A stretch of 64,000 nucleotides of DNA from Alphaproteobacteria bacterium (GTDB lineage: Bacteria > Pseudomonadota > Alphaproteobacteria > Caulobacterales > Caulobacteraceae). Positions within the stretch are counted from its first letter, which is position 1, and every line of letters begins with the position of its first letter. Where the stretch lies: NCBI GenBank assembly GCA_018826515.1, contig JAHKAM010000011.1:1-64000 (forward strand). The letters are read 5' to 3'. Below the pieces are notes generated by a model. The model was not told where the DNA came from and did not search any database. It worked only from the letters and a program-made list of their open reading frames with translations. This document shows positions 23,426-35,204 of the stretch, piece after piece. The position numbers were made by a program, and so were the translations under genes.

Positions 23426-24406
23426 TCAGCGCTCCGCTCCGAAGGCGACCCGGGCGGCCCCCAGCAGGGCGGCGTGCTTGTGCAGGATCACCCGCGTCGG
23501 GATCGCCGCCATATAGTCCTGGTAACGGCCCTTGCGCTCGAAGCGCTCGCGGAACGGGCTGGCCTTGAGGAAGGACAGGATTCGCGGAGCGATGCCGCCG
23601 GCGACATAGACGCCGCCGCGGGCGCCGGTGGTCAGGGCGATGTCGCCTGCCACAGCGCCGAGAATGGCGCAGAACCGCGCCAGGGTGGCCCCGCAATGGC
23701 TGCCGGGATTCTCCAGCGCCTCGGTGGTGATCTGGGCCGGATCGTCGATATGGCTCTCGCGCCCGTCGATCTCGGCCAGGGCGCGGTGCATGTTCAGCAG
23801 GCCGGGGCCGCAGATCAGCCGCTCGATCGAAACCCGGCCGTAGCGGCGGCGGAGAATGCGCAGGATCTCGTCCTCGACGGCGTCTCCGGGTGCGAAACAG
23901 GCGTGGCCGCCTTCCGAGGGCATGGCCATCTCGTGGCCGTGAACGTCGCGGACCAGGGCGGAGACCCCGAAGCCGGTGCCCGGGCCGAGCACGGCGATGG
24001 CGGCGTGTGGATCGCCCTCGTCCGGACCGCCGAGCGAGGCCAGTTGATCCGGCGGCACAATGGGCGCGCCCCAGGCCTGGGCCTCGAAATCGTTGATCAG
24101 GCGGATGGGATCGAGGCCAAGGGTCTGGAGCTGGGCCTCGGACACGCGCCAGGGGGAGTTGGTCAGGTCGATCTCGCCGTCGGTGACCGGACCGGCCACG
24201 GCGATGACGCCGCCCGTCGGCTTGGTCGCGCAGCCCTCAAGGAAGGCGGCGACCCCCTTGAGGAAGGTGGGGTGGCGTTCGGCCGGAAAGCTCTCGTGAT
24301 GCTCGAGCACCGGCCGGCCGTCGACCAGACGGGCAAGGGCGAAGCGGGCGTTGGTCCCGCCGACGTCGCCGACCAGAAGCGTTGCGGAGGCGGGATCGGT
24401 CATCAT
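23426..24406 (-). CDS. glk: Glucokinase
   Basis: A 326-residue bacterial glucokinase (glk family, about 320 residues). The phosphate-binding start LVGDVGGTNARFALARL, the acidic sugar site in PIRLINDFEAQAWGAP, the GPGTGFGVSAL motif and EGGHACFAP are all present. It makes glucose 6-phosphate for zwf, which is the first gene of the same cluster. Its ATG at 24406 overlaps the edd stop (ATGA); a second ATG follows immediately. It is the last gene of the long minus-strand run. Confidence 0.95.
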   Translation of the reverse strand: MMTDPASATLLVGDVGGTNARFALARLVDGRPVLEHHESFPAERHPTFLKGVAAFLEGCATKPTGGVIAVAGPVTDGEIDLTNSPWRVSEAQLQTLGLDPIRLINDFEAQAWGAPIVPPDQLASLGGPDEGDPHAAIAVLGPGTGFGVSALVRDVHGHEMAMPSEGGHACFAPGDAVEDEILRILRRRYGRVSIERLICGPGLLNMHRALAEIDGRESHIDDPAQITTEALENPGSHCGATLARFCAILGAVAGDIALTTGARGGVYVAGGIAPRILSFLKASPFRERFERKGRYQDYMAAIPTRVILHKHAALLGAARVAFGAER

Positions 24407-26295
24407 GCGTCCACCGTGCGATCGACAAGGTTGGGGTCCGGCGGCGTGTCAGCCTGGCTCGGTTCTCCGGTCGGCGACGCGAAACAGATCGAGGCGCCGA
24501 ACTCGGCCGTGCCGACCATCTGGCGGAAGGCGCCGAACAGTTCGCGGCCGTAGCCCGAGGCGGCGCCGGTCGCATGGGCCGCGCTTCGGAGGGCGGCGGG
24601 ACGGGCGAGGAGGTCGGAGACTCCGACCGTACCCAGCGTCCCGGCTTCGGGATCCAGCCGGATGATATCCCCGTCACGAACATGGGCCAGCGGCCCGCCG
24701 GCGAGCGCCTCGGGCGACACATGGATGGCCGCCGGGGTCTTGCCCGAGGCGCCCGACATGCGGCCGTCGGTGACGAAGGCGACCTTGAAGCCCTTGTCCT
24801 GCAGCACCGACAGGGCCGGCGACAGGCTGTGCAACTCGGGCATGCCGTTGGCGCGCGGCCCCTGGAAGCGCAGGACGACGACCACGTCGCGGTCGAGCTT
24901 GCCGTCCTTGAAGGCCTGGAGTGCGTCCTCCTGGGTTTCGAACACGGCGGCGGGGGCCTCGATGATCCGGTTCTCCGGCTTGACCGCGGAAATCTTGATC
25001 ACGCCGCGGCCGAGGTCGCCCTGGACGAGACGCAGACCGCCTTCGCGATCGAAGGGATCAGAGGCGGGGCGCAGAATGTCCGTGTCCAGACTTTCGGTAA
25101 CCCCGTCCTTCCAGACCAGGTCGCCGTCGATCAGCATGGGCTCCCGGAAATAATGGTGGATGCCATCGCCCATGACGGTCACGACATCGGAATGGATATG
25201 GCCGGCGCCCGCCAGTTCACGGGCCACGAAGGCGACGCCGCCGGCGGCCTGGAAGGCGTTCACATCCGCCGAGCCGTTGGGATAGACCCGGGCCAGCAGC
25301 GGCGTGACCGAGGACAGCTGGTCCATGTCGGTCCAGTCGACCAGCACGCCGGCCGACCGGGCCATGGCCACCAGATGAATGGCGTGGTTGGTCGATCCGC
25401 CGGTGGCCAGAAGGGCGACGATCATATTGACGACCGACTTCTCGGAAATGACGTCCGCCATGCGGCCCTGGCCCGTCCGGGCCAGCTCGACCGCGCGTTT
25501 GGCAGCCGCCGCCGTGAGGGCGTCGCGCAGGCCGGTCTCGGGGTGGACGAAGGCGGTCGAAGGCAGGTGCAGGCCGCCGAGCTCCATCATCATCTGGTTG
25601 GAGTTGGCGGTGCCGTAGAAGGTGCAGGTGCCCGGCGAATGGTAGGAGCCGACCTCGCTCTCCAGCAGGGTCGCGCGGTCGACCTTGCCCTGGGCGTATT
25701 CGGCGCGCACCCGGGCCTTTTCGAAATTGGGGATGCCCGAAGGCATGGGGCCGGCGGGCGCGAAGACCACGGGCAGATGGCCGAAGGCCAGCGAGCCCAT
25801 GAACAGGCCGGGGACGATCTTGTCGCAGACGCCGAGGCAGACCACGGCGTCAAAGGCGTCGTGGGTCAGGGCCACGGCGGTGGACATGGCGATGAGGTCG
25901 CGGCTGAACAGCGACAGGTCCATGCCCGGGCGCCCCTGGGTGACGCCGTCGCACATGGCGGGCGTGCCGCCGGCGACCTGGGCCGTGGCGTTCACCTCGC
26001 GCACGGCGTCGCGGATGATCTGCGGGAAGCGTTCGAACGGCTGGTGAGCCGACAGCATGTCATTGTAGGCGGTGACGACGCCGACGTTCGGCTGCGTCCC
26101 CGACATGGCGTTGAGCTTGTCCTTGACCGGCGCTCCGGCGAAGGCGTGGGCCCAGTTGGCGCAGCTGAGCTTTGCCCGCCCGACGCCGGATGAACCGGCG
26201 GCGTCCATGCGGCGCAGGTAGTCGGTGCGGGTCTCCCTCGAGCGCGCGATGATGCGGGCGGTGACCTCGGCCACGACGGGATGGAGTTCAGGCAT
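24403..26295 (-). CDS. edd: Phosphogluconate dehydratase
   Basis: A 630-residue dehydratase of the IlvD/Edd family that turns 6-phosphogluconate into KDPG. Iron-sulfur ligands are expected in [29 protein letters not shown] and [14 protein letters not shown]; the family signature with [23 protein letters not shown] in part is near the C-terminus. I use ATG 26295, which overlaps the pgl stop (TGATG) and has GGAG about 10 nt upstream; a GTG at 26313 would add six residues. Part of zwf-pgl-edd-glk. Confidence 0.95.
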
Positions 26296-27014
26296 CAAGC
26301 ATTCTCCGTCCACAGAACATCAAGCGGGACGTCAGCCGCAATGAGGGCCGCGATGGGCTGGGTCGCGGGATCACCCGTGGCTTCGCGCTCGAACACCGCG
26401 CGTTTGGCGGCGCCGGTGATGGCGAGGACGACGCGGTTGGCGGTCATCAGATACGGCAGGTTGATGGTCAGCCGCTCCAGGCTGGGCGCGGCGCCGTCGC
26501 GCCCGTGCGGCACGCCGAGCACCGTCGGCGGAAGCGCGGGCGAGAGCAGGGTCTTCAGGGTCGGACTGTCGGGGAACATGGAACAGATATGGCCATCCTC
26601 CCCCATGCCGAGAAGGACGGCGTCCAGTTTTCCGCCCTCAGCCGCCAGCGCATGGGCGGCCAGGGCGGCGGCGCGGTCGACGGTGACGGCGGGATGGAAG
26701 AGTGGGACGAAGCGGGCAGCGGCGGCCCGGTCGGTCAACAGCGTCTGCTTCAGCAGGGCCGCGTTTGACTCGGGCGAGGTCTCGGCAACGTAACGCTCGT
26801 CGATCAGGGTGACGGTGATCCTGGACCAGTCGAGGCCTGTGCCGGCCATGCGACGATAGATGGGCGCGGGCGTCGACCCGCCAGAGCCCGCGAAGATCGC
26901 CTTGCCGCTCTCAGCGAGGGCGTCATCCAGGGCATCGGTCAGGCGGATGGCGCAGGCGTCAGCCCAGGCGGCGCCGTCGCTGAAGGTCTCGATGGCGGGC
27001 AGGGTCTCACCCAT
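26295..27014 (-). CDS. pgl: 6-phosphogluconolactonase
   Basis: A 239-residue Pgl (DevB-type) that hydrolyses 6-phosphogluconolactone. Motifs seen: AIFAGSGGSTPAPIYRRMA, TLIDERYVAETSPESNAALL and LDAVLLGMGEDGHICSMFPDSP. ATG 27014 lies inside the zwf 3' end, an 8-nt overlap, and excludes a long non-homologous upstream extension. The stop overlaps the edd start. Cytoplasmic; second step of the Entner-Doudoroff and oxidative pentose phosphate routes. Confidence 0.95.
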   Translation of the reverse strand: MGETLPAIETFSDGAAWADACAIRLTDALDDALAESGKAIFAGSGGSTPAPIYRRMAGTGLDWSRITVTLIDERYVAETSPESNAALLKQTLLTDRAAAARFVPLFHPAVTVDRAAALAAHALAAEGGKLDAVLLGMGEDGHICSMFPDSPTLKTLLSPALPPTVLGVPHGRDGAAPSLERLTINLPYLMTANRVVLAITGAAKRAVFEREATGDPATQPIAALIAADVPLDVLWTENA

Positions 27015-28467
27015 GACCCGTGTTCCACTCCCGCCCGGTCCGTGACAGCAGCAGATCGGCCTCGGGCGGGCCCCAGGTTCCGGCGGCGTATGGCTTCGGT
27101 TTGAAGTCGGCGTCGCGCCAGGCGTCCGAAACCTCGTCGACCCATTTCCACGCCTGTTCCGCCTCATCGCGGCGCACAAAGAGGGTGGAGTCCCCGGCCA
27201 GGGCGTCGAGCAGCAGGCGCTCATAGGCGATCCGGCGGCGGGGCGGCCTGGCGTCCTTGTCGTCCTGACCCCAGGACAGGGACATCTGGATGGGTTGGAG
27301 CTTCATGCGCTGGTCCAGCCCCGGCCTCTTGTTCATCACGGACAGGGCGATGTCTTCCTCGGGCTGGAGTTCGATCACCAGACGGTTGGCGGCGATGACG
27401 CCGCGCGCGCCATGGTCGAAGATCGAGTGGGGCACGGGCTTGAACTGGATGACGATCTCGGTCCGCTTCTCGGCCAGCCGCTTGCCGGTGCGAAGGAAGA
27501 AGGGGGTCCCGGCCCAGCGCCAGTTGTCGATGTCGACGCGGAGGGCGACGAAGGTCTCGGTGTCGGACGCCTGGCCTCGCTCCTCGTCATACGAGGTCAC
27601 CGGCCGGCCCTCGCTGGTCCCGGCGACGTACTGGCCCCGCACGGTGACGCGCTCGACGTCGGCGCGGGTGACAGGCCGGAGTGAGCGAATGACCTTGACC
27701 TTCTCGTTTCGGACCGAGTCCGGATCGAGGTCGGAGGGCGGCTCCATGGCGACCAGACAGAGCAGCTGGAGCATGTGATTCTGGAGCATGTCGCGTAATG
27801 CTCCGTACTCGTCGTAATAGGGCCAGCGATCGCCGACGCCGACGGTTTCCCCGACCGTGATCTGGACGTGGTCGATCGACAGGCTGTTCCACAGCGGCTC
27901 GAAGATGGTGTTGCCGAAGCGCAGGGCGATCAGGTTCTGGACCGTCTCCTTGCCGAGGTAGTGGTCGATGCGGAAGACCTGCTGTTCCGAGAAGGCGTCC
28001 GCCACCGCGTCGTCGATCTCGCGGAAGCTCTCGAGGTCGCGACCGACCGGCTTCTCCAGAACCACGCGGTCGTCCGCCTCGGCCAGGCCGGCGGCGCGCA
28101 TGGCGGTGACGATGCGGGCGTACAGCGAGGGCGATACGGCCAGGAAGGAGGTGCAGGCGCCGTCGCCGACCTTGTCCTTGAGCGGCTTGAGGCTTTCGGC
28201 GCTGGTGGCGTCGACGGCCAGATAGTCGAGTCGGGCTTCCATCCGGCCCCAGGCCTGGTCGGACCAGGCGTCATCCGCCCGGGCCTTGCCTTCGACCGCG
28301 AGGCGAACCCTGGCGACATATTCATCGCGGCTCTCGTCCGACCGGGCGGCGCCGATGATCTTCAGGCCATCGGGCAGCAGGCCGTCGTGCTCAAGGAAGT
28401 AGAGCGATGGCAGCAGCATCCGCATGGCGAGGTCGCCGCCGCCGCCGAACAGCACCAGGGCCGCCAT
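27007..28467 (-). CDS. zwf: Glucose-6-phosphate 1-dehydrogenase
   Basis: A 486-residue enzyme of standard length. The nucleotide motif LFGGGGDLAMRMLLPSLY, the active-site block FRIDHYLGKETVQNLIALRFGN and the later WAGTPFFLRTGKRLAEK are intact. It oxidises glucose 6-phosphate and supplies NADPH. GGAGAG sits 5-6 nt before the ATG. Only 14 bp separate it from the hisIE stop with no terminator, so any dedicated promoter would have to lie within hisIE; otherwise it is read from the his operon. Confidence 0.97.
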   Translation of the reverse strand: MAALVLFGGGGDLAMRMLLPSLYFLEHDGLLPDGLKIIGAARSDESRDEYVARVRLAVEGKARADDAWSDQAWGRMEARLDYLAVDATSAESLKPLKDKVGDGACTSFLAVSPSLYARIVTAMRAAGLAEADDRVVLEKPVGRDLESFREIDDAVADAFSEQQVFRIDHYLGKETVQNLIALRFGNTIFEPLWNSLSIDHVQITVGETVGVGDRWPYYDEYGALRDMLQNHMLQLLCLVAMEPPSDLDPDSVRNEKVKVIRSLRPVTRADVERVTVRGQYVAGTSEGRPVTSYDEERGQASDTETFVALRVDIDNWRWAGTPFFLRTGKRLAEKRTEIVIQFKPVPHSIFDHGARGVIAANRLVIELQPEEDIALSVMNKRPGLDQRMKLQPIQMSLSWGQDDKDARPPRRRIAYERLLLDALAGDSTLFVRRDEAEQAWKWVDEVSDAWRDADFKPKPYAAGTWGPPEADLLLSRTGREWNTGHG

Positions 28468-28481
28468 GGGCTCTCCTTCGT

Positions 28482-29123
28482 TCAGGTCCCGGCTGGACCG
28501 GAGTTGTGTCTGGCTGCTTTCGCGCGCTGCGCCAAGACGTCGAGGACGTCCTGAAACACCATGTGACGCGCCCGGAGCAGCACCATCAGGTGATAGACCA
28601 AATCCGCAGCCTCGGCCGCCAGTTCCGAATCCGGCCCCGCGACGCCCGCCAAAGCGGTCTCGACGCCTTCCTCCCCCACCTTCTGGGCCACGCGTTTGAC
28701 GCCCTCGTCGAGGAGGCGGGCGGTCCAGCTTTCCGACGGATCGGCGGCGGCGCGGGCGGCGATGGTCGCCTCCAGCCGGGCGAGGCGGCCCAGGCCGGGG
28801 GCGTCCTCGTCGCCGAAACAGCTGATGCGGCCCAGATGACAGGCGTTGCCGACCGGCCGGACCTTGAGGACGAGGGCGTCGGCGTCGCAGTCGGGGGTGA
28901 TTGAGACGACATGCAGCCGGTCGCCCGAGGTCTCGCCCTTGCGCCAGCGCCCGCCGCGCGAGCGGGAGAAAAAGGTGGCCTCGCCGCTGGCGAGGGTCTC
29001 GTCGAGGGCGGCGCGGTCCATATAGGCCAGGGTCAGCACCTGCAGGGTGGCGGCGTCCTGGACGACGACCGGGATCAGGCCGCCGGACTTGTCGAAATCG
29101 AGGGTGGAGGGATCGAGCGTCAT
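28482..29123 (-). CDS. hisIE: Bifunctional phosphoribosyl-AMP cyclohydrolase/phosphoribosyl-ATP pyrophosphatase
   Basis: A 213-residue fusion for steps two and three of histidine synthesis. The HisI part (about residues 10-115) shows SRGGRWRKGETSGDRLHVV, then DCDADALVLKVRPVGNACHLG with the zinc Cys/His. The HisE part (about 115-200) shows KVGEEGVETALAG and ELAAEAADLVYHLMVLL, the MazG-like helices binding magnesium. Alphaproteobacteria more often keep hisI and hisE separate, so the fusion is a small point of note. The start overlaps the hisF stop by 4 nt. Confidence 0.95.
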   Translation of the reverse strand: MTLDPSTLDFDKSGGLIPVVVQDAATLQVLTLAYMDRAALDETLASGEATFFSRSRGGRWRKGETSGDRLHVVSITPDCDADALVLKVRPVGNACHLGRISCFGDEDAPGLGRLARLEATIAARAAADPSESWTARLLDEGVKRVAQKVGEEGVETALAGVAGPDSELAAEAADLVYHLMVLLRARHMVFQDVLDVLAQRAKAARHNSGPAGT

Positions 29124-29887
29124 ATCCGCATCTCCTGTCCGGCGTCCGAGAGGAACGCCTTCAGATCGGGAATCGCCAGGGCGCCCGTGTGGAAGACGCT
29201 GGCGGCGAGGGCGCCGGAGACGTCGGCCTGTTCGAATACGTCGAGAAAGTGCGAAGCCGCGCCGGCGCCCCCCGAGGCGACCAGCGGGATGGTCAGACGG
29301 GCGCGGGCGGCGGCGAGCTGGGCGATGTCATAGCCGCGGCGGACGCCGTCCTCGTCCATGCAGTTGAGAACGATCTCGCCGGCGCCGAGGGATTGCGCCT
29401 CGACGATCCAGTCGAGGGTGCGCCGGCCCGCGCCACGGCTGGCGGTCGGGTCGCCGGTGTACTGGTGGACGACCCAGTCGTCGCCAGACCTTTTGGAATC
29501 GACGCCGACGACGACGCACTGGCTGCCGAGACGCGCCGCCATCTCGCCGATCAGCCCGGGACGTTCGAGCGCGGGGGAATTGATCGAAACCTTGTCCGCG
29601 CCGTGGTCGAGGCAGCGGGCGGCCTGATCGACGGAGCGGATGCCGCCAGCGACGCTGAAGGGGATGTCGAGCAGACGCGCGATGTCCCGGACCCAGCCGT
29701 AGTCGAGGGTGCGTCCCTCGGGGCTGGCGGTGATGTCATAGAAGACCAGTTCGTCCGCGCCCTGATCGCGGTAGCGCGCGGCGAGGTCGGCCGCGTCGCC
29801 CATGTCGGTGTGGCCCTGGAAGCGGACGCCCTTGACCACCCGGCCGTCCCGGACATCGAGGCAGGGGATGATGCGCCGGGCGGTCAT
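29120..29887 (-). CDS. hisF: Imidazole glycerol phosphate synthase cyclase subunit
   Basis: A 255-residue TIM barrel that, with HisH, makes imidazole glycerol phosphate and AICAR. The catalytic aspartates are in PCLDVRDGRVVKGVRF (Asp11) and VVVGVDSKRSGDDW (about Asp130). VGGGIRS is here VAGGIRSVDQAARCLDHGADKV in part, followed by NSPALE. Start and stop overlap hisA and hisIE respectively by 4 nt. Confidence 0.97.
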   Translation of the reverse strand: MTARRIIPCLDVRDGRVVKGVRFQGHTDMGDAADLAARYRDQGADELVFYDITASPEGRTLDYGWVRDIARLLDIPFSVAGGIRSVDQAARCLDHGADKVSINSPALERPGLIGEMAARLGSQCVVVGVDSKRSGDDWVVHQYTGDPTASRGAGRRTLDWIVEAQSLGAGEIVLNCMDEDGVRRGYDIAQLAAARARLTIPLVASGGAGAASHFLDVFEQADVSGALAASVFHTGALAIPDLKAFLSDAGQEMRI

Positions 29888-30609
29888 GCCGCGAGCGCCT
29901 CTTCGAGGGTGAAACGGTTCTCGTAGAGGGCGCGGCCGACGATGGCGCCGTCGCAGCCGAGGGCGGCGGCGGCGGTCAGGTCGGCGACCGAGGCGACGCC
30001 GCCCGAAGCCTGGACCTTGAGGTCGGGCCGGCGCCGGATGATCTCGGCCAGCAGGTCGAGATTGGGTCCGGTCAGGGCGCCGTCGCGGCCGACATCGGTG
30101 ACCAGCAGATGCCGGGCCAGGGCGGGCGGATAGCGGTCCAGCGCGGTCCAGAGATCGACCCCGGCAGCCTCGGTCCAGCCTTTCAGGGCCGGGACCCAGC
30201 GGTCGCCGTCCGCCTTGACGTCGATGGCCAGGGTGATGCGGTCCGGGCCGAAGCGGCGCAGCCAGTCGGCCACGGTCTCGGGCTGGGACACGGCGAGAGA
30301 GCCGACCACGACCCGCGCCACGCCCGCGTCGATGAGGGCGGCGACGTCGGCGGCGGAGCGGACGCCGCCGCCGGACTGGATGCGGATGTCGATGGCGCGG
30401 GCGAGGTCGCCGATGAGGGCGTGCTGGACCGCGCGGCCGGCCTCGGCGCCGTCGAGATCGACGATATGGGCCCAGGTCGCCCCGGCCGCGGCGAAGGCGG
30501 CGAGGCGGGACGCGGGGTGGTCGTCGTAGCGCGTGACCTGATCGAACCGGCCGTGCATGAGCCGCACGCAGGCGCCGGCTCTCAGATCAATGGCGGGGTA
30601 GACGATCAC
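29884..30609 (-). CDS. hisA: ProFAR isomerase
   Basis: A 241-residue TIM barrel isomerase for step four of histidine synthesis. The catalytic aspartates fall in IVYPAIDLRAGACVRL (near residue 8) and LLVTDVGRDGALTGPN (about 130), with the phosphate motif QSGGGVRS and QASGGVAS. The start is GTG 30609, overlapping the hisH stop as GTGA; the ATG in the longer frame at 30687 lies deep inside hisH and would add non-homologous residues. Confidence 0.95.
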   Translation of the reverse strand: MIVYPAIDLRAGACVRLMHGRFDQVTRYDDHPASRLAAFAAAGATWAHIVDLDGAEAGRAVQHALIGDLARAIDIRIQSGGGVRSAADVAALIDAGVARVVVGSLAVSQPETVADWLRRFGPDRITLAIDVKADGDRWVPALKGWTEAAGVDLWTALDRYPPALARHLLVTDVGRDGALTGPNLDLLAEIIRRRPDLKVQASGGVASVADLTAAAALGCDGAIVGRALYENRFTLEEALAA

Positions 30610-31208
30610 GCGGGGAGCTCCAGAAAATTGCGCAGGATGCGGGCGCCGGCGGCGGCGGAACGCTCGGGGTGAAACTGGCAGCCCCACCGGTTGCCGGTGC
30701 GGACCACGGCCGGCACGGGGCCGCCGTAGTCGGCGCGGGCGAGGGTGGCGGGACCGTCGGGGCAGACGAAGCCGTGGACGAAATAGGCGTAGGCTCCATT
30801 CGCGACGCCCTCGAGCAGGGGGTCCGAGCGGACGGCGGTCAGGCGCGACCAGCCCATATGCGGCACGGTCAGGCCGGGACCGGGCTCAAGCCGGCGGACG
30901 GCGCCAGGGATCAGGCCGAGCAGGGGAACCGGCTCACCCTCCTCGCTGGTCTCGAACAGCAACTGCTGACCGAGGCAGACGCCCAGGAGCGGTCGCGTGA
31001 AGGCGCGGATCGGCTCCACGAGGCCCAGCGCTGACAGGCGGGCCATGGTGTAGCCGGCGGCGCCGACCCCGGGAAGGATCAGCCGCTCCGCCTCAACGAC
31101 CGCGACCGGATCGTCGGTCAGGCGCACCGTAGCGCCCAGCCGCTCCAGCGCGAACTGGACCGAGGCGGTGTTGCCGGCGCCGTAGGCGAGGACCGTGACT
31201 TCGGTCAC
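30606..31208 (-). CDS. hisH: Imidazole glycerol phosphate synthase glutaminase subunit
   Basis: A 200-residue class I glutamine amidotransferase. The nucleophilic cysteine is in PLLGVCLGQQLLFETSEEGE and the His-Glu pair in GCQFHPERSAAAGARILRNF. LILPGVGAAGYTM provides the oxyanion strand; the expected PGVGAFG is replaced by PGVGAAG, a mild variation. It supplies ammonia to HisF. Start and stop overlap neighbours by 4 nt. Confidence 0.96.
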   Translation of the reverse strand: MTEVTVLAYGAGNTASVQFALERLGATVRLTDDPVAVVEAERLILPGVGAAGYTMARLSALGLVEPIRAFTRPLLGVCLGQQLLFETSEEGEPVPLLGLIPGAVRRLEPGPGLTVPHMGWSRLTAVRSDPLLEGVANGAYAYFVHGFVCPDGPATLARADYGGPVPAVVRTGNRWGCQFHPERSAAAGARILRNFLELPA

Positions 31209-32641
31209 AGGACGCCCTTGGTGCTGGGCACGACGTCGCCCTCGATCCGGATGGCCTGACGCAGGGCGCGGCCGAACGCCTTGTAGACGGCCTCCGTCTT
31301 GTGGTGGTCGTCCTCGCCGGTGACCGAGATATGGATAGCGGCGCCGAGGTGCTCCGCCAGCGAGCGAAAGACGTGGGCCGTCAGGTCGGTGCGGTAGTCG
31401 CCGATGAAGGGCGTCTCGAAGGTTCCCTCAAAGACGGGGAACGGACGGCCGGAAAGGTCGATCGAGACGCTGGCGTTGGCCTCGTCCATCGGCAGGACAA
31501 AACCGTAGCGGGCGATGCCGCGGCGTTCGCCCAGCGCCTGCTTCAGGGCCTGGCCGAGGGCGATGGCCGAGTCCTCGATGGTGTGGTGCGGATCGGTGTG
31601 CAGGTCCCCCTCGCACGACAGGCGCAGGGAGAAGCCGCCGTGGGCGGCGACCTGTTCCAGCATGTGGTCGAAGAAGCCGACGCCGGTGGCGATGGCTACC
31701 GGGCCAGTTGCGTCCAGATCGACGGCGCAGACGATGCGGGTCTCCTTCGTATCGCGGACGGCCTCGCCGGTGCGGTGGGCGCGGGTGGTCGCCGGCGCGA
31801 GGCCAAGCGCGGTCAGCAGGCGGTCGTTGACCTCGGCGCGCGCGGACACCGGCAGACGGAGCCGGTCCCCGTCGCGTTCGCCGACCAGACCGAAGCGGTC
31901 GAGGGCGGTGATGATCGCGTCCGGGTCTGCGGGACGCGTCAGGATCACGGGACCGAAGCCGGGCTCGACCGCCATCTCGCGCGACAGGGCCCTGGCCAGC
32001 CGGTCGCGCTCCGCACGGACCAGGGCGATGCGGGCGGTGGTCTCCATCATGCGCGAGGGATCCAGCGCCTGCAGCGCCAGCCGGACCGAGATCTCGGGCA
32101 CGGCGAAGGGTTCGAGCACAGCGGAGAGGCGCGCGAGGGTCTCGGGCCAGGCGAGCGCCGCGCCGACCCGGGCGCCGGCCAGTCCGTACGCGAGCGACAG
32201 GCTGCGCAGCACGACCAGATTGGCGCAGTCATCGATCACGGTCGCGGCGGAGGCGGCATCCGCGAACTCGACCATGCCTTCATCGACAACCAGCAGGGCG
32301 GGGGCCACGCGCGCGGCCATTTCGGCAACCGCCTCGGGCGCGCCGGCGGCCCGGACGATCACCACGCCGGTCCCGGCATTGGCGGCCGGAGCGGCGTAGA
32401 GGCCGGCGAGGGTCCGGTAGGGCTCGGCGTCGGGGGCCTCGACACGCAGACCATTGCGGGCGGCCAGGCGGTAGACCAGCTCCAGCCCGTGAGTCAGGCC
32501 GCGCACCGGCAGGACGCTGTCCGCCGGGACGCTGTAGACCCGGGCCATGCGGGCGGCGAGGGCGCGAGGTTCAACTGGATAGGCGTCGAGGCCTTCGCCG
32601 CCGGAGACCAGCGGGGGGAAGGGGGCGGGCAGGTTGTTCAT
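31205..32641 (-). CDS. hisB: Fusion of degenerate HisC-like domain with imidazoleglycerol-phosphate dehydratase
   Basis: A 478-residue protein. Residues about 292-478 are a complete HisB: GVGFFDHMLEQ, and both metal motifs HHTIEDSA (352-357) and HHKTEAVYKAFGRAL (from 446). Residues 1-285 resemble histidinol-phosphate aminotransferase: LLVVDEGMVEFAD (from 117) and NLVVLRSLSLAYGLAGARVG (141-160). In active HisC the second block reads LSKA(F/Y)GLAG with the PLP lysine; here position 150 is leucine, encoded CTC. The usual NPNNPTG motif is missing, the VDEAY tyrosine is methionine, and the domain is about 70 residues short. So the N-terminal part cannot bind PLP normally and is probably structural or regulatory. 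An active hisC must lie elsewhere. The frame is intact, and both ends overlap neighbours by 4 nt. Confidence 0.9.
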   Translation of the reverse strand: MNNLPAPFPPLVSGGEGLDAYPVEPRALAARMARVYSVPADSVLPVRGLTHGLELVYRLAARNGLRVEAPDAEPYRTLAGLYAAPAANAGTGVVIVRAAGAPEAVAEMAARVAPALLVVDEGMVEFADAASAATVIDDCANLVVLRSLSLAYGLAGARVGAALAWPETLARLSAVLEPFAVPEISVRLALQALDPSRMMETTARIALVRAERDRLARALSREMAVEPGFGPVILTRPADPDAIITALDRFGLVGERDGDRLRLPVSARAEVNDRLLTALGLAPATTRAHRTGEAVRDTKETRIVCAVDLDATGPVAIATGVGFFDHMLEQVAAHGGFSLRLSCEGDLHTDPHHTIEDSAIALGQALKQALGERRGIARYGFVLPMDEANASVSIDLSGRPFPVFEGTFETPFIGDYRTDLTAHVFRSLAEHLGAAIHISVTGEDDHHKTEAVYKAFGRALRQAIRIEGDVVPSTKGVL

Positions 32642-33945
32642 GCGCCGGTCCTCAGGTCAGCCGCGCGGGCGTGGGCCTCGAGGCCTTCCAGCCGGGCGAG
32701 CCGGGCGGCGACGGGGGCGAGCTGGCGGGCCCCGTCGGCGCTGACCTGCTGGACCGACATGGAGGTCATGAAGCTGGCCGTGGTGACGCCGCCCATCGTG
32801 CGGGCGGCGCCGTCGGTGGGCAGGACGTGGCTGGGACCGGCGGCGTAATCGCCCAGGGTCTCGGCGGCGAAGGCGCCGACGAAGACGGCGCCGGCGGCGG
32901 AGATGCGATCGACCAGTTTGTCGGCCTCCACGGTCTGCAGGGCGAGGTGTTCGGGGGCGTAGAGATTGGCGACCTCGCAGGCCTCGGCCACGTCGCGGAC
33001 ACGGATGGCGCGGCCTTCGGCGAGCGAGGCGCGGGCGATGTCCGCGCGGGGCAGGGTCTCAAGCTGGCGATCCACCTCGGCGAGGATGGCGTCGATGTTG
33101 GCGCGGCTCTCGGAGACGAGGATGACCTGGGCGTCGGCGTCGTGCTCGGCCTGGCTGAGGAGGTCGGCGGCGGCGATCTCCGGGTCGGCGTCGCGGTCGG
33201 CGATGACCAGCAGTTCCGACGGGCCGGCGGGCATGTCGACGGAAGGCCCGCCCGGCAGGGACGAGGCCTGTTTCTTGGCCTCGGCGACCCAGGCGTTGCC
33301 GGGGCCGAAGAGCTTGTCGCAGGGTTCGATGACGCCGTCCTCAAGCTCCGCCCCGAAGGTCAGGGCGGCGATCGCCTGGGCCCCGCCGACCAGCCACAAG
33401 AAGTCCAGCCCGGCCTCGGCGGCGGCGAAGATCATGGCGGGGTGCGGCTCGCCGGATGCGGACGGCGGGGTGACGGCGACGCGGCGGCCGACCCCGGCGA
33501 CGGCGGCCGGAATGGCCAGCATCAGCAGGGAAGAGAACAGGGGGGCCGATCCGCCGGGGACATAGAGGCCGGCCGAGCGAAGGGGCCTCCAGACGAGGCG
33601 CGAGCGGACGCCGGGGATGATCTCGACGTCCGGAGTGTCCTCGGGGCGGGTCGCCTCGTGGAAGATGCGGATGTTCTCGGCGGCCATGCGGATGGACCGG
33701 GTGTCGGCGGGTCGAAGGGTGTCCCGGGCGGCGGCGACGCGGTCCGGCGTCAGCTCCAGACGACGCGGCGCGGCGCCGTCGAGCTTCAGGCTCCAGTCAG
33801 TCACAGCCGCACCGCCGCGCGCGCGGACGTCCTCCATGATCTCGCGCACCGTATCGGTGACGCGGGTCTCGGTGCGGCGACGCGGGCGGGCGAGGGCCTC
33901 GAGACGGGCGTCTGCGTCGAGGGCATTCCAGTCGATGCGTTTCAT
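32638..33945 (-). CDS. hisD: Histidinol dehydrogenase
   Basis: A 435-residue zinc enzyme oxidising histidinol to histidine in two steps. Seen: GLYVPGGSAPLFSSLLMLAIPA in part, LFGPGNAWVAEAKKQAS, DMPAGPSELLVIADRDADPE, LLSQAEHDADAQVILV (zinc ligand region) and the C-terminal PSHVLPTDGAARTMGGVTTASFM in part. ATG 33945 overlaps the hisG stop (TGATG); a GTG one codon earlier is an alternative. Confidence 0.97.
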   Translation of the reverse strand: MKRIDWNALDADARLEALARPRRRTETRVTDTVREIMEDVRARGGAAVTDWSLKLDGAAPRRLELTPDRVAAARDTLRPADTRSIRMAAENIRIFHEATRPEDTPDVEIIPGVRSRLVWRPLRSAGLYVPGGSAPLFSSLLMLAIPAAVAGVGRRVAVTPPSASGEPHPAMIFAAAEAGLDFLWLVGGAQAIAALTFGAELEDGVIEPCDKLFGPGNAWVAEAKKQASSLPGGPSVDMPAGPSELLVIADRDADPEIAAADLLSQAEHDADAQVILVSESRANIDAILAEVDRQLETLPRADIARASLAEGRAIRVRDVAEACEVANLYAPEHLALQTVEADKLVDRISAAGAVFVGAFAAETLGDYAAGPSHVLPTDGAARTMGGVTTASFMTSMSVQQVSADGARQLAPVAARLARLEGLEAHARAADLRTGA

Positions 33946-34826
33946 CACATCATCTTCTCAATGGGGAGGACCAGGATCGCCGAGGCGCCGGCGGCCTTGA
34001 GCCGTTCGAGGGTTTCCCAGAAGACGGCCTCCTGACAGACGGCATGGACGGCGACGGCGTCGTCCCGCCCCGACAGGGGCATGACGGTCGGCGAACCCGC
34101 GCCCGGGAGGATGGCGGTGATTTCGGCCAGGGCGGAGCGCGGGGCGTTGAGCATGACGTATTTCGCCCCTTGCGAGGACACCACGCCGGCCATCCGTTCA
34201 ACGATACTGTCCAGCAGGTGCTGCAGGTCCGGCTCGGGCGCGACCGGGGACTTGATCAGCACCGCCTGGCTTTCCAGCACAGTCTCCCGGGCGGCGAGGC
34301 CGTTGGCCTCAAGCGTCGCCCCGGTCGAGACCAGGTCGCAGATGGCCGAAGCCAGCTTGAGCCTGGGCGCGACCTCGACCGCGCCGCGCATGGTGACGAT
34401 GTCGGCGGCGACGCCACGTTCATCCAGGAACCGGCGCAGGATCTTCGGATAGGAGGTGGCGATGCGCAGTCCGTCCAGCGAGGCCGGGCCGGCATAGTCG
34501 AGCGTCGGAGGAATGGCGATCTTCAGGGTGCAACGACCGAAGCCGAGCGGCATCAGCACCTCGGCGGTCGGTCCGCCGTTGCGGGCCTCTTCCAGCACAT
34601 TCTCACCGACGATGCCGAGGTCGCAGACGCCGTCGGCGACGAAGGTGGGGATGTCGTCGTCGCGGACGCGCAGCAGGTCGATAGGGTAGTTCTCGACCCG
34701 GTAGAGCAGGTCGTTGTTTCCCTTGATCACGCGCAGGCCCGCATCGCGGACGAGGTCGAGGCTGCGGTCGGCCAGACGGCCGGATTTCTGGACGGCGATG
34801 CGGAGCCGGCCCTGGACGGTGCTCAT
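33945..34826 (-). CDS. hisG: ATP phosphoribosyltransferase, long form
   Basis: A 293-residue HisG, the committed and feedback-inhibited step of histidine synthesis. The catalytic domain has QKSGRLADRSLDLVRDAGL, VRDDDIPTFVADGVCDLGIVGE in part and the PRPP motif in DLVSTGATLEANGL. The C-terminal residues (about 215-293) form the ACT-like HisG_C domain of the long form, ending LVLPIEKMM, which binds histidine; hisZ is not needed. It is the first his enzyme gene, 24 bp downstream of the yerC-like regulator. Confidence 0.96.
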   Translation of the reverse strand: MSTVQGRLRIAVQKSGRLADRSLDLVRDAGLRVIKGNNDLLYRVENYPIDLLRVRDDDIPTFVADGVCDLGIVGENVLEEARNGGPTAEVLMPLGFGRCTLKIAIPPTLDYAGPASLDGLRIATSYPKILRRFLDERGVAADIVTMRGAVEVAPRLKLASAICDLVSTGATLEANGLAARETVLESQAVLIKSPVAPEPDLQHLLDSIVERMAGVVSSQGAKYVMLNAPRSALAEITAILPGAGSPTVMPLSGRDDAVAVHAVCQEAVFWETLERLKAAGASAILVLPIEKMM

Positions 34827-34850: not shown

Positions 34851-35168
34851 TCAGGCTTTGGTCTTCAGGCGGTCCAGCACCAGGCGGTAGCCCTGGTGCG
34901 GCATCTCCTTGAGGAAGCGGGCGACGCGGACGACGGTGGTCGGGCTGGCCTGGGCCTCGGCGGCGATTTCTCGATACGACCTGCCGCCGGCGTCGAGCAG
35001 ACGGGCGACCTCCCAGCGCTCGGCGAAGGCCCGCACCTCCGAGGGGGTGCACAGGTCGGCCAGGAAGGCGTCGACCTCGTCGCGCGACTTCAGCGACAGC
35101 AGGGCGTCATAGAGGGCGACCCGACTGTTGGCCGTGGCGGCGGCGTTGCGGGGCAGGGCATCGGTCAT
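34851..35168 (-). CDS. TrpR/YerC-YecD family regulator, probable regulator of the his operon
   Basis: A 105-residue TrpR-superfamily protein. The helix-turn-helix region is LCTPSEVRAFAERWEVARLL, then GRSYREIAAEAQASPTTVVRVARFLKE, the YerC/YecD pattern. Start MTDALPRN at 35168; the longer frame lacks homology. It directly precedes hisG in the same direction. Comparative genomics in Gram-positive bacteria has proposed members of this family as histidine-responsive repressors (HisR); I recall this from general knowledge. A palindrome overlapping its own promoter supports autoregulation and control of his genes. Binding of tryptophan is less likely given context. Confidence 0.85.
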   Translation of the reverse strand: MTDALPRNAAATANSRVALYDALLSLKSRDEVDAFLADLCTPSEVRAFAERWEVARLLDAGGRSYREIAAEAQASPTTVVRVARFLKEMPHQGYRLVLDRLKTKA

Positions 35169-35172
35169 GCGC

Positions 35173-35204
35173 GTTTCACTATGGTGTAACAGTGGAACGG
35201 TCAA
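35173..35204 (-). promoter_or_regulatory. Promoter with overlapping operator-like palindrome for the yerC-his operon
   Basis: On the minus strand TTGACC (35204-35199) and TAGTGA (35181-35176) are separated by 17 bp, a sigma70-like promoter. The predicted start falls at or one base from the ATG of the regulator gene, so the transcript may be leaderless. A 26-bp imperfect inverted repeat (35173-35198) has arms GTTTCACTAT and ACAGTGGAAC, matching at 8 of 10 positions across a 6-bp spacer. It covers the spacer and -10, an ideal repressor site. The likely ligand is the adjacent TrpR-like protein. Confidence 0.6.

Follow-up and report, generated by a model that had tools for sequence, protein, structure and literature searches.

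A HisC-fold domain without the catalytic lysine, fused to HisB in Caulobacteraceae, is very probably the retired half of a two-enzyme fusion

The stretch of DNA analysed here (the window, 64,000 nucleotides, positions 1 to 64,000 of contig JAHKAM010000011.1 in assembly GCA_018826515.1, from a member of the Caulobacteraceae) carries a histidine biosynthesis gene whose product joins an N-terminal domain of HisC type to a C-terminal HisB (IGPD) domain. The gene, its domains and the residues of the first domain that correspond to active-site residues of Escherichia coli HisC are given below, with conservation among the Brevundimonas-type rows (the window plus 60 loci, n = 61) and the Asticcacaulis rows (n = 16) of the alignment.

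31205..32641, minus strand: pseudo-HisC-HisB fusion gene, a single open reading frame (ORF) of 478 amino acids with an ATG start
31787..32641, minus strand: N-terminal pseudo-HisC domain, residues 1-285, predicted aminotransferase fold without the catalytic lysine
31208..31774, minus strand: HisB (IGPD) domain, residues 290-478, intact (PF00475 and NF002111)
32192..32194, minus strand: Leu150 (CTC) at the E. coli HisC Lys214 position (alignment and codon check)
32273..32275, minus strand: Met123 (ATG) at the E. coli Tyr187 position (alignment and codon check)
32282..32284, minus strand: Asp120 at the E. coli Asp184 position, kept in 61/61 Brevundimonas-type and 16/16 Asticcacaulis rows
32195..32197, minus strand: Ser149 at the E. 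coli Ser213 position, kept in 61/61 Brevundimonas-type and 16/16 Asticcacaulis rows
32168..32170, minus strand: Arg158 at the E. coli Arg222 position, kept in 61/61 Brevundimonas-type and 15/16 Asticcacaulis rows

A first-pass annotation of this DNA had described a HisC-like N-terminal domain fused to an intact HisB, and both parts of that description held. The HisB half was matched by PF00475 across its whole length (197.5 bits, cut-off 27) and by NF002111 at 242.2 bits, above the cut-off of 231. Its HHTIE and HHKTE motifs, which we take to be metal-binding as HHxxE motifs of HisB, are present, and H352, H353, E356, H446, H447 and E450 were invariant in structure alignment A3 (41 of the 80 public loci plus the window). 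Residues 104-230 matched the HisC family TIGR01141 at 86 bits, and the curated cut-off of 276.55 was not reached. An AlphaFold model of residues 1-288, computed with 61 relatives (alignment A2: 61 of the 80 loci plus the window), gave a predicted local distance difference test score (pLDDT) of 91.4 and a predicted template modelling score of 0.87. The closest solved structures were those of enterobacterial HisC, with a Z score of 27.7 for Klebsiella 7szp and of 27.3 for E. coli HisC 1gey (root-mean-square deviation 2.1 Å over 261 aligned residues). The structure prediction that the annotation had proposed as a check thus returned an aminotransferase fold, and the N-terminal half is, on this model, of the HisC fold (fold-type I). 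A HAD-type phosphatase domain was found at the N-terminus neither by Pfam search nor by fold comparison, the fold there being that of an aminotransferase; the HisNB model PRK05446 matched only at its positions 163-355 (269.7 bits against a cut-off of 443). A separate HisB made from an internal start was also considered and rejected: no in-frame ATG, GTG or TTG occurs between codons 265 and 327 and HisB begins near residue 290, so the two domains form one polypeptide. The model of the full-length fusion had a pLDDT of 88.2 and, as a single chain, is uninformative on the multimer.

Several residues on which aminotransferase chemistry would depend are gone from the first domain. In a phmmer alignment residue 150 of the fusion, encoded by CTC (32194-32192), stood opposite residue 214 of E. 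coli HisC (1fg3), LRTLSKAFALAGLR versus LRSLSLAYGLAGAR, bearing out the replacement of the catalytic lysine by leucine. The tyrosine of the VDEAY motif is methionine (codon 123, ATG), and the PNNPTG loop, which the annotation had listed as a lost NPNNPTG, was indeed absent in the alignment with E. coli HisC. Further, Asp85 is replaced by Thr50 and Arg322 by Glu255, and residues 1-33 of E. coli HisC, its N-terminal arm, have no counterpart. Across the alignment the loop was deleted in 61/61 Brevundimonas-type rows and altered but present in 16/16 Asticcacaulis rows, and Tyr187 was gone from nearly all Brevundimonas-type rows. The positions of Asp184, Ser213 and Arg222 were kept as listed above; in E. 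coli HisC these presumably contact, respectively, the ring nitrogen of pyridoxal phosphate (PLP), PLP itself and its phosphate. A Hyphomonadaceae locus (L139) has alanine for the serine and proline for the arginine, and one genome (G009) has proline at the Arg222 position. Arg335 was kept in 60/61 Brevundimonas-type rows and in L139 and lost in Asticcacaulis. Tyr55, which in HisC we take to reach the active site of the partner subunit, was kept in 57/61 Brevundimonas-type rows, had no majority in Asticcacaulis and was absent from L139. As its sequence says, the HisC half of the fusion would be catalytically dead.

The same fusion is widespread among relatives of the window genome. Among 199 Caulobacteraceae genomes, 36 of the 40 that carry the window's genus code (Brevundimonas) and 24 of 25 Asticcacaulis genomes contained a full-length match; the remaining four of the 40 were G092 (Peiella sedimenti), which has a lysine-bearing fusion, and three genomes without a HisB match. 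At the lysine position the 36 Brevundimonas genomes had leucine (35) or methionine (1), and the 24 Asticcacaulis genomes tyrosine (11) or phenylalanine (13). Elsewhere in the family, G009, of a third genus, had leucine and Peiella lysine. The fusion of G009 is shortened, with about 60 more residues lost and a dead domain of about 222 residues. Loss of the whole domain was not seen in any of the 60 fusions (36 Brevundimonas-type and 24 Asticcacaulis). In public sequence data, all 80 loci taken as the best of 133 relatives carried the fusion in one ORF, and 78/80 lacked the lysine (61 Leu, 9 Phe, 7 Tyr and 1 Met), a share that is not free of bias, the query having been an alignment of lysine-less domains; the two with lysine were Peiella and Sphingomonas parva. 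One truncated locus (L187) lay outside the alignment and its leucine was added to this count by hand, and some of the records are labelled to class or family only. The search of related genomes thus recovered the fusion repeatedly. A frameshift, misassembly or base-call error was rejected as the source of the lysine-less ORF, since the same single ORF occurs in many independent genomes, and so was recent decay confined to the window strain, the lysine loss being widespread among relatives. One record labelled as a Bordetella metagenome-assembled genome (L136) contains a Brevundimonas-type fusion and is probably a mislabelled or contaminated bin.

A wider search with the Peiella fusion across 190 genomes of the class (E ≤1e-60) matched eight genomes: two with Brevundimonas-type fusions, two with lysine-bearing fusions (G314 and G330), two with a HisC match alone, G283 and G285. 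The locus of G285 is interrupted by a contig end and its class is undecided. In G283 the HisB (L202:736-2412) has a long N-terminal extension without a Pfam match above cut-off. A reading of this extension as an eroded HisC was not borne out: Pfam reported only IGPD above cut-off, and a profile comparison gave a probability of 1.7% and an E value of 0.029 in the C-terminal part only, leaving a HisC origin unsupported.

We then asked how strongly the dead domain is conserved. In 10 Brevundimonas genomes (45 pairs), the dead domain had a median ratio of nonsynonymous to synonymous substitution rates (dN/dS, Nei-Gojobori) of 0.27, against 0.114 in HisB and 0.264 in the separate HisC encoded by these genomes, the ratios being rough because pairs are non-independent and codons GC-rich. 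Median identities over these pairs were 0.685, 0.92 and 0.844, respectively, and median dN was 0.242 for the dead domain and 0.054 for HisB. Judged from ratios well below 1, the dead domain is evidently under purifying selection. Residues 142-164 around the lost lysine matched HisB in conservation (mean consensus 0.93 versus 0.92, Brevundimonas-type rows). The Asticcacaulis domains share 33-36% identity with the window domain, and seven residues, namely H51, L78, Y82, S147, E177, P231 and P237, reached 90% conservation or more in each of the two dead clades and occurred in 0/10 intact HisC rows; L139 shares five of the seven (H51, L78, S147, E177 and P231). Some of this sharing may reflect inheritance from a common ancestor and the demands of folding. 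Overall, the conservation pattern argues for a retained function, as far as substitutions can tell, over slow decay alone.

The fusion gene lies within a compact operon, in which its ATG overlaps the hisD stop (ATGA) and its own stop overlaps the start of hisH. The other genes of the operon are:

34851..35204, minus strand: YerC/YecD TrpR-family gene at the operon head, in the hisR position (TIGR02531, 66.4 bits, cut-off 42.2)
33945..34826, minus strand: hisG (TIGR00070)
32638..33948, minus strand: hisD (TIGR00069, 445.8 bits)
30606..31208, minus strand: hisH (TIGR01855)
29884..30687, minus strand: hisA (TIGR00007), ORF as listed, the true start probably lying further in
29120..29887, minus strand: hisF (TIGR00735)
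28482..29123, minus strand: hisIE fusion (NF002747, 240.8 bits, cut-off 187)

Transcription runs on one strand from the YerC/YecD gene through hisG, hisD, the fusion, hisH, hisA and hisF to hisIE, and 7/7 of these neighbours had NCBIfam matches above cut-off. This is the E. coli order hisG-D-C-B-H-A-F-I, with one gene standing for hisC and hisB. In the accessible part of PMC9413887, hisR is described as heading his operons in Proteobacteria, and the YerC/YecD gene of the window occupies the same position. The IGPD profile matched only once in the window genome, which therefore shows no second HisB. Directly downstream of the operon and on the same strand, at 24403-28467, are ORFs that resemble by eye the Entner-Doudoroff genes edd, pgl and zwf.

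Fusions that retain the lysine bear on the origin of the dead domain. These were found in Peiella sedimenti, in S. parva and in the families of G314 and G330, and they may well be commoner than sampled. The Peiella fusion scored 286-288.4 bits against TIGR01141, above the cut-off of 276.55, and in the G314 family both fusion and lysine were present in 3/3 genomes. The Peiella and S. parva fusions retain PNNPTG and the N-terminal arm, while the loop reads SPNSPSG in G330 and TPQNPCG in G314. In a tree of HisC domains (45 rows, careful method, with 13 dead domains taken and three repeat rows left out), the dead domains formed one clade (support 100/99), joined by the HisC halves of Peiella and S. 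parva (100/99), and the separate HisCs formed another clade (100/99). An origin of the dead domain as a copy of the resident separate HisC is not supported by this tree, which sets the two in different clades. A HisB tree (76 rows, quick method, with the Shimodaira-Hasegawa-like approximate likelihood-ratio test (SH-aLRT) as the only support measure) set 21 rows labelled as fused, G285 and nine HisNB-type rows apart from 45 solo HisBs with a support of 100. The solo HisBs included all 12 solo Caulobacteraceae sequences entered, and the HisNB-type rows were E. coli and eight putative members from genomes outside the class, picked by open-frame length and class. G283 had been entered in this tree as 'pseudo', and G285 as 'solo', although it fell into the fused group.

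Common descent with the lysine-bearing fusions would thus hold for both halves, with 100/99 for the HisC half and 90, with long branches, for the HisB half. Because lysine-bearing fusions exist in relatives, the two-enzyme fusion probably came first and the death of the HisC half followed. Very probably, then, the dead domain originated as the retired half of a HisC-HisB fusion. Since the fused HisB groups with the HisNB type and away from solo Caulobacteraceae HisB, the tree suggests that a his operon of gammaproteobacterial type may have arrived horizontally, though duplication with later differential loss might also account for the grouping. The hisIE fusion and the hisR-like first gene of the window would fit such an arrival. 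The accessible part of PMC1963479 infers horizontal arrival for hisNB in other groups, and gives the hisIE fusion in 1.9% of 52 histidine-making alphaproteobacteria.

The annotation had also suggested a search for a separate, active hisC. The window genome has one HisC above cut-off (302 bits), on a different contig and with the lysine and a PSNPTG loop, and a separate HisC above cut-off was present in 24/24 genomes checked (19 with the dead fusion, Peiella, G034 with a solo HisB, and three without a HisB match). Two genomes of the window's genus code, G083 and G174, both at 100% completeness, have no IGPD and no hisD and are probably histidine auxotrophs by gene content; they nevertheless retain a full HisC. 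An apparent absence of hisB in G135 was taken as an assembly gap, its hisD being at a contig end. Retention without hisB and hisD indicates that the presence of the separate HisC is independent of the fused domain, and that this enzyme probably has a job besides histidine synthesis. The HisCs of Thermotoga maritima and Bacillus subtilis are reported to be bifunctional with aromatic substrates, in the accessible part of PMC9309667. We looked for a tyrosine-pathway gene beside the separate HisC and found none. PF02153 (prephenate dehydrogenase N-domain) had no match in the window genome, G083 or G092 and matched in 14/14 control genomes; G174 had one match, below cut-off. The window genome may make tyrosine by another route. 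In G009, an intact hisC lies at the end of the his operon (L250:10567-11661) and another hisC elsewhere, in addition to the shortened dead domain of its fusion.

Taken together, we propose that adjacent hisC and hisB genes in a his operon of E. coli order fused to give a bifunctional HisC-HisB ancestor, and that the lysine-bearing form came first and would have been active as both enzymes. This type of operon would have reached Brevundimonas and Asticcacaulis horizontally, where the transamination could have been covered by a separate HisC that was already resident and had a further role, probably an aromatic one, so that the fused active site could decay. In the least certain step, the folded domain would now be a non-catalytic, structural part of the HisB polypeptide that contributes to folding, solubility, multimer assembly or expression. 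For the present role we favour such a structural contribution ahead of passive retention, HisC docking and sensing, and we hold the whole account, of a retired HisC half that now serves HisB structurally in cis, tentatively, at somewhat under an even chance. Several observations weigh against it. The HisC tree carried long-branch warnings, left E. coli, G330 and G314 without a settled position, and gave just 62/88 to the grouping of the dead domains with the lysine-bearing fusions and E. coli HisC; the support of 90 for the fused HisB group is SH-aLRT alone, from a quick tree with long branches, and horizontal transfer was read from the HisB tree alone. In Peiella the fusion still bears the lysine (288.4 bits) although a separate HisC of this kind (305.9 bits) is also present, indicating that redundancy can allow decay without making it inevitable, and the upstream neighbour of the separate HisC had no Pfam match. 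The HisB domain is visibly complete, with nothing calling for a partner domain, and HisB does not always require the whole HisC domain, which is further shortened in G009 and not recognisable before HisB in G283. Lastly, a domain can be retained passively, since a deletion that preserves both start and frame is rare.

The last point leads to the reading of the domain as a relic without benefit of its own, in which selection would act only on folding and on harmlessness to HisB, and clean in-frame removal would be rare. The further erosion in G009, the higher dN relative to HisB (median 0.242 versus 0.054) and the different patterns of loss (loop deleted with Leu or Met in the Brevundimonas type, loop altered with Phe or Tyr in Asticcacaulis) speak for it. 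It sits poorly, however, with the absence of any deletion in 60 fusions across two genera, with seven derived residues common to two diverged clades and with a core at 142-164 as conserved as HisB, and we regard it as doubtful, if worth keeping in view. An active regulatory or docking role for the dead HisC, which would control HisB in cis by sensing a phosphorylated pathway intermediate or by pairing with the separate HisC, is in our view unlikely. On this reading H51, S147, E177 and P231, some of which adjoin old cofactor-pocket positions in the sequence, would be new residues that became fixed before the Brevundimonas and Asticcacaulis fusions diverged. Of its two forms, both also raised in the annotation, docking would have the dead domain pair with the separate HisC, as dead subunits of other enzymes pair with their partners, and bring it beside HisB. 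The predicted fold is intact, a separate HisC is present in 24/24 genomes and the two enzymes catalyse consecutive steps; but the N-terminal arm is missing from the dead domains, Tyr55 is common only in the Brevundimonas-type rows, and the separate HisC belongs to a different clade and is retained even where HisB is absent, which together make docking improbable. As a sensor, the leftover cup for the PLP phosphate would bind PLP, histidinol phosphate, imidazole acetol phosphate or histidine and tune HisB. That almost every Brevundimonas-type and Asticcacaulis row conserves the Asp184, Ser213 and Arg222 positions, even with the lysine gone, is what such a sensor would require, yet L139 and G009 have substitutions at these positions, Arg335 is lost in Asticcacaulis, and the conserved residues may simply serve folding; we consider sensing decidedly improbable. 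Finally, an aminotransferase that still works through another mechanism or a displaced lysine is scarcely credible. Retention of the fold and of some of the PLP pocket speaks for it, but four different residues replace the lysine in 78/80 loci, the dead domains no longer have the loop asparagine, Arg322 or the arm, and almost none of the Brevundimonas-type rows has Tyr187. Provided that the HisC half is inactive, as its residues indicate, channelling between the two halves is excluded for the window fusion; the annotation had found a channelling role attractive, and such a role would fit the presumed ancestor and may operate in the fusions that keep the lysine.

Fusions of his genes are a textbook case of gene fusion shaping a pathway. 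Here, both the lysine-bearing version of one fusion and its dead counterpart occur in living bacteria, alongside a separate enzyme assigned to the same reaction, and this makes a general question testable: whether a redundant half is kept by its partner's dependence or is merely hard to remove. Should the domain prove to be a regulatory or docking module, it would be a pseudoenzyme born by retiring one half of a bifunctional enzyme. There is also a warning for annotation, as the fusion protein may be counted as a HisC though probably unable to act as one. In the accessible parts of the open-licence literature searched, neither a HisC-HisB fusion nor a dead HisC was found. The fused his genes named in the accessible parts of PMC1963479 and PMC10138114 are hisD, B, N, I, E, F and H, with hisC not among them; the accessible part of PMC8305728 names only hisIE and hisNB as fusions, and 'hisC-hisB' in that of PMC6432763 denotes operons of separate genes. 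His-gene fusions and pseudoenzymes are each already known, and within the literature accessible to us the HisC-HisB fusion with a dead HisC is offered as new.

Comparison with known systems places the window fusion among several partial parallels. LCB1 of serine palmitoyltransferase (PLP fold-type I) and HisZ of histidine biosynthesis are dead homologues that bind, support or regulate an active partner. A dead homologue is kept in these systems and in the window fusion, whereas an active partner belongs to LCB1 and HisZ and none is demonstrated for the fusion. The enterobacterial HisCs (7szp, 1fg3, 1gew and 1gey) share the fold of the window domain, but the latter is without the lysine, PNNPTG and the arm and has 285 residues versus 356. 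E. coli HisNB, as described in the accessible part of PMC1963479, has the same type of C-terminal IGPD domain, an N-terminal partner enzyme from the same pathway and a compact operon of equal order; its N-terminal domain is a phosphatase, in contrast to the aminotransferase fold of the window fusion. The closest likeness is to the lysine-bearing fusions, which share with the window fusion the domain order, the single ORF, the HisB group (90) and, for Peiella and S. parva, the grouping of the HisC halves (100/99). Unlike the window fusion, all of them have the lysine, and those of Peiella and S. parva have the arm and PNNPTG as well; they are presumably active as aminotransferases.

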